Positions 55,817 to 60,386 of a stretch of 64,000 bases of DNA are shown here, piece after piece. The number at the start of each line of letters is the position of its first letter. The stretch's first letter is position 1. A program made the position numbers and the translations under genes. The notes beneath the pieces are model-generated. The model searched no databases. It was not told the origin of the DNA and saw only the letters and a list, made by a program, of their open reading frames with translations. Source of the DNA: Aliarcobacter sp. (GTDB taxonomy: Bacteria; Campylobacterota; Campylobacteria; Campylobacterales; Arcobacteraceae). The stretch spans positions 1 through 64,000 of the forward strand of contig JAQTXB010000013.1 in the NCBI GenBank assembly GCA_028688995.1. The letters are read 5' to 3'.

Positions 55817-55874
55817 GTAGTGATGTATGATTCTTGAATTATAAATTACAATTTAATTACATAAAATATATAAA

Positions 55875-55912
55875 TGTACTATATTTGATTTTATGTAAAA
55901 AAATAGTACAAT
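55875..55912 (+). promoter_or_regulatory. Promoter of the prp regulator gene with inverted repeat
   Basis: TTGATT (55885-55890) and TACAAT (55907-55912) are 16 bases apart. An inverted repeat, TGTACTAT (55875-55882) and ATAGTACA (55903-55910), flanks the -35 box and overlaps the -10 box. This is consistent with autorepression of the regulator. Confidence 0.55.
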
Positions 55913-55941
55913 GGTGTAAATATTACATTCAAGGTGTTGTT

Positions 55942-56919
55942 ATGAACTATAAAAATTCAATAGAAAAATTTATAGAGATATTTAAAAGATCAAACTTAAG
56001 TATTTCAAAATTTGCGGTATTAATAAACAAAGATAGAAGAACGGTTACATCGTGGATTGATAAGATTACAGACATAGAACCAAACAAAGAAATAAAAGAC
56101 AAAATTTGTCAAACATTCAGGTATCCAGACTATATTTGGGAGGATGGTTGTAATGGTGAAGAGTTTTTAAAATCAATAACACAAATACCCCAAAAAGAGG
56201 TAAGAATCATTGATGAAGACTATCATGGAAGATTAAAATACATAATGGAACAAGAGCAAAATAGAAGATTTGTAATTCAAGCGCAGTTTCCAGGACCTAT
56301 GTATAGGGATTCTGCTGTACAGAAAGTGTACAAATCAACAACAAGTACAGATATTGAAGAATTGAAACAAGCAAGAATAAATCAGATGCTAAAATATGAT
56401 TATGATACAACTGAATGGTATTCAATAAAATCCATTTTATCTTTTTGTTTTGCAATCATTGGAAATTTTTATACTAAAGATGAAAAGATTAAAATCTTAG
56501 AACTTATATATGAACTTTTTAATAATAACTATAATAAAAAACTTTTTTTATTTGATTCATATTCAAGAAAAATTTACGGAATGGAAACAACATATATTTC
56601 AATAAATGTAAAACAAAAGGTGCTTTTTTTTAAATCACCAATTGAATCTGTTTTTATAGAAATTAGAAATAAGTCATTGGTTGAAAGAATGCATAAATAT
56701 TACTCTTCACCAATAGAAGCTCCATCTCATGTGAATTTTTTAGAATCTGTAAAAATCATTAAAATTTTACAAGATGCACTAAAATATAATAATGATATTA
56801 AACAGGCTTATGAAACTATTAATAGAGAGACAAATTATGGAGAACTTTTTTACAATAATTTAAGTGTTGATTTACAAAAAGAGGTAACACCTCCAAAACC
56901 TGGACAAAGAAGAAATTAG
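55942..56919 (+). CDS. Helix-turn-helix regulator divergent from the prp operon
   Basis: The 325-residue protein starts MNYKNSIEKFIEIFKRSNLS and has an N-terminal helix-turn-helix (about 15-45, LSISKFAVLINKDRRTVTSWID). A 270-residue C-terminal region without a family I recognise follows, ending TPPKPGQRRN. It is not the sigma-54-type PrpR nor a GntR repressor known for other prp operons. The position, head to head with prpB across a promoter region with repeats, suggests it controls propionate use. I chose the ATG with AAGGTGTTGTT upstream. A dehydrogenase gene follows after nine bases. Confidence 0.78.
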   Translation: MNYKNSIEKFIEIFKRSNLSISKFAVLINKDRRTVTSWIDKITDIEPNKEIKDKICQTFRYPDYIWEDGCNGEEFLKSITQIPQKEVRIIDEDYHGRLKYIMEQEQNRRFVIQAQFPGPMYRDSAVQKVYKSTTSTDIEELKQARINQMLKYDYDTTEWYSIKSILSFCFAIIGNFYTKDEKIKILELIYELFNNNYNKKLFLFDSYSRKIYGMETTYISINVKQKVLFFKSPIESVFIEIRNKSLVERMHKYYSSPIEAPSHVNFLESVKIIKILQDALKYNNDIKQAYETINRETNYGELFYNNLSVDLQKEVTPPKPGQRRN

Positions 56920-56928
56920 GAGATAAAT

Positions 56929-57870
56929 ATGAAAATAGCAATTTTAGATAGAGCAACTTTAGGATTTGATATTAATATGAGTATTTTTGAGAGTTTAGGT
57001 GAAGTGATTTCTTATGACATTACACTTCCAACTGAAACAATTTCTAGAGTGAAAGATGTAGATATTGTAATCACAAATAAAGTTGTTATTTCAAAAGAGA
57101 TTATGGATGCTTCAAATTTAAAACTAATTTGTATAAGTGCAACTGGAACAAATAATGTAGATTTAGTTTATGCAAAAGAAAAAGGTATTGAAGTAAAAAA
57201 TGTAGCTGGATATTCAAGTTCTAGTGTAGTACAAGTTGCCTTTGCAATGATTTTTCAATTTGTTCAAAAACTTGATTATTATAAAAAATATGTAGATGAG
57301 CAAAACTGGCAAAATTCAAAAATTTTTACACACATTGATAAACCATTTTTTGAACTAGATGGAAAAAAAGTGGGAATTATAGGACTTGGTGATATTGGAA
57401 GAAATTTTGCAAAAAAAGCGCAAGCCTTTGATTGTGAAATAGTATATTTTTCAACAAGTGGGAAAAATAGTAATAGTGAATATAAGAGAGTTGAATTAAA
57501 TGAGTTATTAAGTACTTGCGATATTATAAGTATTCATTGTCCATTAAATGAAAATACAAAGGATTTATTAAACTATGAAAATATGAAAAATATAAAAACT
57601 GGTGCAATTTTACTAAATTTAGGACGTGGAGGGATTATAAACGAAGCAGATTTGGCAAAAATAATTGATGAAAAAGAGATTTATTGTGGAATTGATGTGG
57701 TTTCAGTTGAGCCAATTTTAGAAGATAATCCACTTTTAAAAGTGAAAAATAAACATCAACTTTTGCTAACTCCACACATTGGTTGGGCAAGCGTGGAAGC
57801 TAGAACTAGACTTGTTGAAATGGTGGCTAATAATATTAAAGAGTTTATTTCCTTAAAAAGAATCTCTTAA
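56929..57870 (+). CDS. D-isomer 2-hydroxyacid dehydrogenase
   Basis: The 313-residue NAD-dependent enzyme has the Rossmann motif GIIGLGDIGRNFAKKA near residue 149 and the catalytic Arg in NLGRGGIINEADLA near residue 233, Glu in VVSVEP near residue 258 and His in TPHIGWAS near residue 283. It could reduce a 2-keto acid such as hydroxypyruvate. It follows the prp regulator by nine bases, with AGGAG before its ATG. The last 26 bases overlap a 44-residue ORF on the other strand. Confidence 0.9.
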   Translation: MKIAILDRATLGFDINMSIFESLGEVISYDITLPTETISRVKDVDIVITNKVVISKEIMDASNLKLICISATGTNNVDLVYAKEKGIEVKNVAGYSSSSVVQVAFAMIFQFVQKLDYYKKYVDEQNWQNSKIFTHIDKPFFELDGKKVGIIGLGDIGRNFAKKAQAFDCEIVYFSTSGKNSNSEYKRVELNELLSTCDIISIHCPLNENTKDLLNYENMKNIKTGAILLNLGRGGIINEADLAKIIDEKEIYCGIDVVSVEPILEDNPLLKVKNKHQLLLTPHIGWASVEARTRLVEMVANNIKEFISLKRIS

Positions 57871-57979
57871 TTTTCCTAAAGAAAGAAAATTTATTTTTCT
57901 TCTTTAGTTTTGCATTTATCTCAGCTCTTAGAGCTTGCAGATTTTTAGGTTCATAAAGTGATTCTTTTGATATTTTCAT
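57845..57979 (-). CDS. 44-residue basic ORF coupled to the ZorB-like gene
   Basis: The ATG shares one base with the stop codon of the ZorB-like gene (TGATG). The product starts MKISKESLYEPKNLQALRAE and ends in a Lys/Arg/Phe-rich tail, KKKNKFSFFRKIKRFFLRK, that could be an amphipathic, membrane-touching helix. I recognise no family. It reads across the 3' end of the dehydrogenase on the other strand by 26 bases. Small size makes a chance frame possible, but the overlap with the motor gene supports translation. Confidence 0.45.
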   Translation of the reverse strand: MKISKESLYEPKNLQALRAEINAKLKKKNKFSFFRKIKRFFLRK

Positions 57980-58989
57980 CACTCTTTTGTTCCTAAATAG
58001 TTTTGAAGTTCTTTTACTGCTTCATCATTTTTGATGATAAATTTAATTTCAATTCTTCTTGAATTATCTTTATCTTCTGAACCATCTTTATTATAAATTA
58101 ATTCAGAAGATGATTTTCCACTTGAACTTACATATTTATTTAATAAGTTTTTATCAATTCCACTTGTTTCATGTAAAAATTGCATAACTTCTAAAGCTCT
58201 TTGTTGAGAAAGCTGTAAGTTACTTAAATATGTACCATCACTATTTGTATGTCCTTCAATAGTAATTCCATAGATATATTTTCTAATCTCTTTATCTTCA
58301 AGAAGTGTAGAAATATATTTTTTCAAGATTCCATCTAACTCTTTTTTTGAGTCCTCTTTTAATTTATATGCACCTTGGTCAAATAAAATATTTGAAGAAA
58401 ATTTTATAGCTCCACTTTTTTCATCTATATTTATAGATTTTCCAAGTCTCTCTTTTAGTTTTGTAATAACATTTAGTTTTATTCCAGTTAGGCTTTTGAT
58501 TTTAGCTTTTGTAATATCAAACTCTTCAACAGTTTTTTGGTGAGCTTTCTCTTGCTCCAATAGTTTATTTACTAAAACAGTTAATTCACTATCTTTTAGA
58601 GTTATTTGATTTTGTCTATTTTCAAGTTCAGTTGTTTGTTCTTTATCTTTTGCTTCATAACCTAATAAAACATCTTTTAGTTTTTGAAGTTCTTCATTAT
58701 TTAGATTAATAGTTTCATTTGATTTTGACAACTGATTTGATAATTCTGTTTTTTCATCTTCAAGATTTTTTATTAAAGAGTTTAATTTATTTAATACTTC
58801 AGTCTTACTTATTAACTCTTCTTGACTTTGATTTAAAGCATATTTTTCTTTTTCTAAATTACTTTGTGTGTAAATATATTTTATTACAATAGCACCAAGT
58901 ACTAATATAAATACAAAAAGTAATCCAGCCATTAAATCTGCATAAGAAATCCAGAAGTTTTCATCATTTTTTTGTTCATTGTTGTACAT
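57979..58989 (-). CDS. ZorB/MotB-like protein with OmpA domain
   Basis: The 336-residue protein has a short N-terminus, one membrane helix (about 15-40) with the proton-channel Asp18 in WISYADLMAGLLFVF, a coiled coil (about 42-165) and an OmpA-type peptidoglycan-binding domain (about 190-325, GHTNSDGTYLSNLQLSQQRALEV). The I-S-x-x-D-L-M-A-G-L start recalls ZorB of Zorya defence systems and MotB stators. It pairs with the MotA-like gene six bases upstream. No ZorC, ZorD or ZorE gene is adjacent. The role of the motor is unknown. Confidence 0.82.
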   Translation of the reverse strand: MYNNEQKNDENFWISYADLMAGLLFVFILVLGAIVIKYIYTQSNLEKEKYALNQSQEELISKTEVLNKLNSLIKNLEDEKTELSNQLSKSNETINLNNEELQKLKDVLLGYEAKDKEQTTELENRQNQITLKDSELTVLVNKLLEQEKAHQKTVEEFDITKAKIKSLTGIKLNVITKLKERLGKSINIDEKSGAIKFSSNILFDQGAYKLKEDSKKELDGILKKYISTLLEDKEIRKYIYGITIEGHTNSDGTYLSNLQLSQQRALEVMQFLHETSGIDKNLLNKYVSSSGKSSSELIYNKDGSEDKDNSRRIEIKFIIKNDEAVKELQNYLGTKE

Positions 58990-58995
58990 TTATGG

Positions 58996-60216
58996 CTACT
59001 TTGATAGTTCTTTAAATTCTGTTAAATCTTCTATAATTTTTACTGTTTGTTGGTCTATTGTTTCAAGTGAATTTTGTAATTTATCTGTAAACTTAGCGTC
59101 ATATTCATCAAGGCCTTGTTTAAATTTCCACTCAATTTTTTCCATATCACTTTTCATAGTTTCAATACTTTTTATAATATTTGAATAAATTGCTTTTAGA
59201 TTATCTGAACTTAAATTGTCCATATGTCCATTTAATTTTTCAATACTATTATTTAGTAATTGTGCACTTAATACATAAGAATCTTTTTGTTGTTCAAAAC
59301 TTCTAATTGTTGTACTCATATTTAAAGTCATATCTTTTAACATGATTGATAGTTTTTCGTTATTATCAATATTATCATCAATTTTTGCAGATAATAAAAC
59401 TTCTTTTTTCAAAATATCATCAAGTAGGGCAACTCTTTTTTCTATTAAAAGATTTATATTGTCCATTAGGTCACTTGAAGTTAATTTTTCAAATACTTCT
59501 GACATTTTAGAGAAGTTATCAAGATTACTTTTTATGTGAATTGATTCAATATCAATTCTTGTCCAGAAGAATGATTTTGTCTCTTCTTTGATTAAAAAAG
59601 TGTCATGTTCAAATCTGCTCATTCCTATTTTTTCAAAAAAAGTCCACCAAATTGATAAGAAAATACCATAAATAGAAACATAAAAAGCAGTTCCTACTCC
59701 ACCTAAAAGTAATGAAATCTCTTTTTCTAAAGCATCTGTAGTTCCAGATGAAAAATCAGGCATACTAAGAGCAATTGATATAAAAGTTCCTAAAATACCA
59801 AGTGTTGGAAAAATTCCTGAGGCAATTGATGAAAAGTTTGTGTTTCTTAGATTACTTGTATAATCTTTTAAAAAGTCATCAACACTTCCATTTGCTTTTG
59901 TTATATTATCAATAGTTAGTAAATTATTATCAACATAATCTTTTAAAGAAAAAAACATACTTTCATGTTGAGTTTTAAATTTGCATGAAACATGATATGC
60001 ATTGTGTTTTATAAAAAATAGATAAATAAAATAGATAAATCCTATTAAAATCACACTATGAATTTCTACTTTTAATGGTAATTGACCTAAGTAGCATAAA
60101 ACTATAATTGCAAATAAGGCAGTTGGAACTGTAAGTAAAATAAATATTCTAGACATTGGTTTGCAAGTTGTTTGAAATTTAGTACCTAAATTTATAAAAT
60201 TGTCACTTGATAACAT
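58996..60216 (-). CDS. ZorA/MotA-TolQ-ExbB-like proton channel with long tail
   Basis: The 406-residue protein has four likely membrane helices (about 20-42, 50-70, 130-155 and 168-195). The third and fourth carry the MotA/TolQ/ExbB pattern (GIFPTLGILGTFISIALSM and LLLGGVGTAFYVSIYGIFLSI). The remaining 200 residues form a helical, coiled-coil tail in the cytoplasm, a feature of ZorA proteins rather than of TolQ or ExbB. With the ZorB-like partner it should form a proton-driven rotary complex anchored to peptidoglycan. Confidence 0.82.
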   Translation of the reverse strand: MLSSDNFINLGTKFQTTCKPMSRIFILLTVPTALFAIIVLCYLGQLPLKVEIHSVILIGFIYFIYLFFIKHNAYHVSCKFKTQHESMFFSLKDYVDNNLLTIDNITKANGSVDDFLKDYTSNLRNTNFSSIASGIFPTLGILGTFISIALSMPDFSSGTTDALEKEISLLLGGVGTAFYVSIYGIFLSIWWTFFEKIGMSRFEHDTFLIKEETKSFFWTRIDIESIHIKSNLDNFSKMSEVFEKLTSSDLMDNINLLIEKRVALLDDILKKEVLLSAKIDDNIDNNEKLSIMLKDMTLNMSTTIRSFEQQKDSYVLSAQLLNNSIEKLNGHMDNLSSDNLKAIYSNIIKSIETMKSDMEKIEWKFKQGLDEYDAKFTDKLQNSLETIDQQTVKIIEDLTEFKELSK

Positions 60217-60386
60217 TAAAATTCCTTATAATAACGGATGTAAATTAATTTGGAAGTTTAGCATATTTATTATTTTATAACACAAAATTCCAGATTTAAG
60301 CGTAAATATTTGTAACTATTTTACAAATTTATAAGAATTAAAAGGTAAAATAGTAGCATTATGGAAATGAGGAATAATTTAAAACA

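Follow-up and report, generated by a model that had tools for sequence, protein, structure and literature searches.

The closest described relatives of the gene pair studied here are the ZorA-ZorB motors of Zorya types I and II (PDB 8QYD, 8VVN and 8VVI; PMC11890865). In these systems, the A protein combines channel helices with a long cytoplasmic tail, and the B protein carries a membrane motif of the SDLM/ADLM type with a channel aspartate as well as an OmpA peptidoglycan domain; our pair shares all of these features, together with the A-B gene order. A broad treatment of non-flagellar motors leaves the placement of ZorAB open (PMC12505986). The window analysed here, a stretch of 64,000 nucleotides from Aliarcobacter sp. 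(contig JAQTXB010000013.1), contains a pair that we read, with a probability of roughly 60%, as an ion motor of the Zor superfamily, stand-alone and anchored to the wall, which belongs to the core genome in much of the Campylobacterota and has an envelope-linked output.

Anatomy and family assignment of the gene pair

The unit spans positions 57979-60216 and consists of two adjoining minus-strand ORFs, A followed by B, separated by 6 bp (Table 1). An earlier note on this DNA had placed it at 57845-60216; both of its ORFs are real, but the start at 57845 falls within the 3' end of the plus-strand D-2-hydroxyacid dehydrogenase gene. In AlphaFold2 models of the monomers (pTM about 0.5; pLDDT 78.5 for A and 81.4 for B), A shows four predicted membrane helices and a long helical tail, with helices at residues 160-216, 220-246, 248-332 and 339-405. 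B combines a membrane helix bearing Asp18, a long helical stretch up to residue 182 (helices 8-90 and 99-182, with one weak break at 91-98) and an OmpA domain at 202-309. The ZorA and ZorB layouts that the note had described are thereby borne out. Conservation within A peaks in the channel helices (79% identity) and is lowest over residues 246-406 (mean identity 35%).

Table 1. Features of the gene pair and its surroundings in the window; residue numbers refer to the respective protein.
Feature	Position	Strand	Evidence
A, ZorA-like motor ring protein, 406 aa	58996..60216	-	ORF, PADLOC, Pfam, PDB phmmer, family alignment
A membrane helix 1, residues 20-42	60091..60159	-	AlphaFold2
A membrane helix 2, residues 52-71	60004..60063	-	AlphaFold2
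A membrane helix 3, residues 126-150	59767..59841	-	AlphaFold2; G140, G143 and T144 invariant in family alignment
A membrane helix 4, residues 160-195	59632..59739	-	AlphaFold2; GTAFYVSIYGIFLS conserved in family alignment
A cytoplasmic helical tail, residues 196-406	58999..59631	-	AlphaFold2 helices
B, ZorB-like axle and anchor protein, 336 aa	57979..58989	-	ORF, PADLOC, PDB phmmer, alignment
B sole membrane helix, residues 12-35, motif FWISYADLMAGLLFVFIL	58885..58956	-	Family alignment
B Asp18 codon (channel Asp)	58936-58938	-	Within motif FWISYADLMAGLLFVFIL
B periplasmic coiled-coil rod, residues 36-182	58444..58884	-	Predicted helices, hydrophobic periodicity, heptad-stepped lengths
B OmpA-type peptidoglycan-binding domain, residues 195-333	57991..58407	-	Pfam OmpA, predicted strands and helices
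Divergent intergenic region, A to L,D-transpeptidase gene	60217..60386	.	Sequence read
Neighbouring YkuD L,D-transpeptidase, 461 aa	60387..61772	+	Pfam YkuD, 1.1e-12
Neighbouring D-2-hydroxyacid dehydrogenase, unrelated	56929-57870	+	ORF, HMM match

The pair belongs to the Zor superfamily, with scores that chance would not give. PADLOC identifies B as ZorB1 at 1e-56 over residues 3-332 and A as ZorA1 at 6e-13, and phmmer against the PDB returns ZorA as the best match of A (8VVN, 7.5e-7; 8QYH, 8e-6) and ZorB as the best match of B (8QYD, 1.3e-12). Pfam assigns OmpA to B (5.5e-14) and MotA_ExbB to A (6e-7), with MotB_plug on B staying under its cut-off (17.6 versus 24 bits). The NCBIfam Zorya models match the pair as well, but far under their equivalog cut-offs. 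The HMM comparison with ZorA/ZorB, MotA/MotB and TolQ/TolR that the note had proposed as a check is topped by ZorA/ZorB and not by MotA/MotB or Tol/Exb families. In the trees, the family groups with the Zorya motors and is split from MotA and TolQ/ExbB with support of 97/96; B forms a clade of its own (92/91), and the family stands apart from the Zorya rows themselves, with long branches leaving the finer order unsure.

The polar channel residues are kept in the family alignments, namely Asp18 of B (one lineage excepted) and T144 and S181 of A. According to PDB phmmer, the membrane helix 3 region aligns without gaps to ZorA 127-205, and T144 and S181 align, likewise gap-free, with ZorA 147 and 184. 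The A-then-B order is kept across more than 20 genera. A promoter scan of the divergent intergenic region gave matches no more frequent than in shuffles. Elsewhere in the window, positions 55834-56919 encode a conserved helix-turn-helix-like protein (325-361 aa), divergent from methylcitrate-type genes, for which no Pfam, NCBIfam or PADLOC match was found.

Distribution and genomic neighbourhood

The pair represents old, vertically inherited, single-copy core chromosomal genes of much of the Campylobacterota. B is single-copy in 30 of 31 Aliarcobacter genomes, the one miss being a genome that is 87% complete. A profile of 28 A proteins detected A in 194 of the 397 Campylobacterota genomes that are 90% complete or more, almost invariably as a single copy, and in 133 of 150 Campylobacteraceae, where 14 of the 17 misses lie within one genus (g82). 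Named carriers include Aliarcobacter, Poseidonibacter, Sulfurospirillum, Sulfurimonas, C. jejuni and C. coli. Since the distribution is patchy outside the well-covered genera, with many Arcobacteraceae genera lacking the pair, it is dispensable at the level of the phylum; no genome of family f13, probably Helicobacter by inference, was among its matches. The dN/dS of the pair is about 0.1, indicating purifying selection. A had zero matches in 72,556 plasmid records and no match in the viral collection at close range.

Throughout, A and B remain side by side or overlap, and it is the flanking genes that change by genus. The neighbours are an L,D-transpeptidase in Aliarcobacter, RecQ or thyA-folA genes in Poseidonibacter, ThiI in another Arcobacteraceae genus and peb4-like and fba genes in Campylobacter, several of these names having been assigned by eye from sequence. 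Homologues are thus not always found beside flagellar or TonB genes, the setting that would have spoken against the note's reading; instead, housekeeping neighbours vary by genus, and in the loci examined no gene is common across families in a partner-like manner. The L,D-transpeptidase is the divergent neighbour in almost every Aliarcobacter locus, but in none of the other genera examined. Its proposed link to the pair is real in Aliarcobacter, but only genus-deep, and a cell-envelope role is our best guess on the basis of the anatomy instead. As a conserved partner, the L,D-transpeptidase is ruled out beyond Aliarcobacter by the neighbour survey.

In C. jejuni (loci L225 and L230), the pair, which we take to be Cj0598-Cj0599, sits after peb4-like and fba genes in the order peb4-fba-A-B. 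Passing mentions aside, the function of the pair appears unstudied: in the open-licence literature we found no paper devoted to it and no experiment that ties it to a phenotype. One study lists cj0598 as of function unknown (PMC5841378), and a proteomic list names Cj0599 'major outer membrane protein' (PMC2672935), a label that looks doubtful.

The periplasmic rod and the channel aspartate

Between the membrane motif and the OmpA loop, B homologues differ widely in length (211 to 379 residues), and these lengths are quantised in heptads. Eighteen of 29 distinct lengths share the same remainder modulo 7 (p about 3e-8), as do 91 of 102 sequences. Length differences were also taken from 32 comparisons that are phylogenetically independent: 25 are divisible by 7 (p about 9e-16), including 14 odd multiples, and all except one (31/32) equal 0, 3 or 4 modulo 7; a step of 3 or 4 is the classic coiled-coil stutter. 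Only periods of 7 and 14 stand out. Two sequences with runs of N and three short-rod members were removed for this test, the latter conservatively. As controls, the same method gave no multiples of 7 among 11 differences in the YkuD linker of the neighbour and 4 among 20 in the A tail. Furthermore, the rod shows a hydrophobic periodicity of 3.5 residues (p=0.008).

The simplest reading of these patterns is that the rod forms a continuous parallel coiled coil, in which the register from membrane helix to wall anchor would be under selection. An antiparallel hairpin is argued against by the occurrence of odd multiples of 7. At 0.15 nm per residue, residues 36-182 of the window's B would extend over approximately 22 nm if straight. 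Recent tandem duplication does not explain the heptad steps, because the rods are diverged (35% identity) and weakly self-similar (self-identity 10.5-14% at offsets 7 to 35); an origin by tandem DNA duplication was rejected on this ground and because no 21-bp array was found in B. Length changes in heptad steps are known from other coiled coils, for example chemoreceptors, so that the principle itself is not new, whereas finding it in a motor axle apparently is. The B rod offers a natural ruler from membrane to wall.

The channel aspartate is present in 126 of 127 motif-bearing B homologues. In five Campylobacter-family genomes (G132, G145, G156, G323 and G333), the B motif reads SFAGLM or SYIGLI and the aspartate is gone, with AD changed to AG or a rearranged IGL (loci L084/L245 of G132, L238, L239, L242 and L249). 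Both ORFs are intact in this lineage, and dN/dS ranges between 0.04 and 0.16, mostly with dS close to 1 or higher. Loss of the aspartate under retained selection appears to be an unreported, new finding. Either a different function has been kept in this lineage or another residue serves ion flow, and the function selected there may need no ion flow at all. The lineage constitutes a natural experiment on the need for ion flow.

Proposed working, alternatives and known systems

By analogy with its relatives, the pair would assemble as A5B2, with a ring of five A subunits in the inner membrane enclosing the membrane helices of a B dimer. Protons or other cations would pass at Asp18 of B and Thr144 of A and so power movement of the ring against B. 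On the periplasmic side, the two B subunits would extend as a single long, parallel coiled-coil rod, which keeps their OmpA-type domains at the peptidoglycan and makes B a fixed axle, and the helical tail of A would move in the cytoplasm. The output would most likely be linked to the envelope rather than to phage defence or swimming: the motor might sense the condition of the wall, relay it or do work against the wall. More tentatively, and at slightly less than even odds, the family may be a distinct housekeeping rotary-motor class, including that of C. jejuni, which couples an ion gradient to the wall via a heptad-quantised shaft and has one lineage with a disabled channel but a retained shaft; Zorya may derive from it or have arisen alongside.

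Among the alternatives, a defence role is suggested by kinship, as the nearest relatives are Zorya motor proteins. A stand-alone or split system, in which the ZorAB core, as in Zorya, detects damage done to the envelope by phage and works with effectors encoded elsewhere or alone, might also suit the A tail, which as the most variable part of A could follow a changing cytoplasmic partner. However, the adjacent ZorA and ZorB homologues have no ZorC, ZorD or ZorE beside them, as the note had stated. More specifically, the ZorC and ZorD models gave no match in the available sequence of the window's genome, while the same search finds both in a Campylobacterales genome (G112) with a complete type I operon in the order ZorA-B-C-D (L094:1685-8937), each gene recognised by PADLOC; in the family loci examined, no ZorE-type or HNH neighbour was seen. 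Further positive controls were E. coli, Vibrio and Psychrobacter plasmids with ZorA-ZorB-ZorE or an HNH gene, and Nostoc with A-B-ZorC-helicase. Those plasmid matches of B that were examined turned out to be Zorya loci, adjoined by genes of the ZorE type or by ZorC/helicase genes, and A matched no plasmid record. Being core, single-copy and syntenic within genera, the pair does not show the patchy, mobile, island distribution typical of defence, and we consider such a role improbable. The minimal defence system entertained by the note is not supported, because the pair is single-copy, vertically inherited and core; of its stand-alone motor with another output, the Zor-like, effector-less motor stands, the defence variant lacks support and the envelope output stays a best guess.

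The note had also held that the pair is neither a flagellar stator nor a Tol/Exb pair. Membership of the MotAB superfamily and the many flagellated carriers would agree with an auxiliary stator or motility motor, but FliF is missing from 38 of the 194 carriers, and 188 genomes with FliF do not have the pair, which is thus no stator; the window's genome, moreover, has two other, separate MotAB pairs (L004 and L008), and flagellar neighbours were absent from the loci examined. We regard this alternative as very improbable, and a flagellar accessory is rejected on the same FliF cross-tabulation. The statement on Tol/Exb is likewise upheld by a tree clade apart from TolQ/ExbB and a search in which neither a short B of TolR/ExbD type nor a TolA or TonB partner gene was found. 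Less remote, albeit still unlikely, is a structural tether that mainly bridges inner membrane and wall, with rotation secondary or lost. At least five Campylobacter-family genomes without the channel aspartate, in which both proteins remain under selection, would fit this, as would a rod whose length varies freely between species while its register is kept; yet the near-universal aspartate and the strong conservation of the A channel helices, which a plain tether would not need, speak against it.

Several other loci touch on the Zorya question. ZorA2/ZorB2-like pairs with an A protein of 873-890 aa lie beside ExbB-ExbD-SmpB genes in family f13 (L092:7806-11224 and L093:5473-8888), with no Zorya effectors nearby, and a further ZorA2/ZorB2-like pair (L231:119-2280) occurs in a Campylobacter-family genome, G243, that also carries the core pair. 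Because the PADLOC ZorB1 model PDLC00609 gives the core B protein of Campylobacter a score of about 6e-56 (L078:8684-9625), Zorya counts in Campylobacter based on ZorA/ZorB only could be inflated. The core pair, closely related to the Zorya motor and carried also by Campylobacter jejuni, separates the Zor-type motor from phage defence.

Compared with Zorya, the pair lacks ZorC, ZorD (both by model) and ZorE (by neighbours), is core and single-copy, and forms its own clade. Its A protein is shorter (406 aa versus 645-729 aa in ZorA1), whereas its B carries a long rod, the family mostly measuring 313-491 aa against 217-239 aa in true ZorB rows. MotA-MotB of the same genome shares the superfamily, the channel aspartate and the OmpA anchor, but belongs to a different clade, and the pair differs in its sub-threshold MotB_plug score and its independence from flagella. 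TolQ-TolR and ExbB-ExbD share the ion-motor superfamily; in contrast to them, the pair has an OmpA domain and long rod in B, no TolA/TonB partner and a different clade. An architecture very like it, with similar protein sizes, is found in an alphaproteobacterial pair from Sinorhizobium (L233:2856-4993; 368 and 342 aa), which combines a MotA/TolQ/ExbB-like protein with a PRK09039-type 'peptidoglycan-binding protein' and, like our pair, has a long spacer from membrane helix to OmpA, no effectors alongside and housekeeping neighbours; its B, however, is only 26% identical, with the motif FVDALSTLL and a long-branch tree position. The C. jejuni pair, presumably Cj0598-Cj0599, belongs to the same family, with an A protein of approximately 440-490 aa and a B protein of 316 aa.
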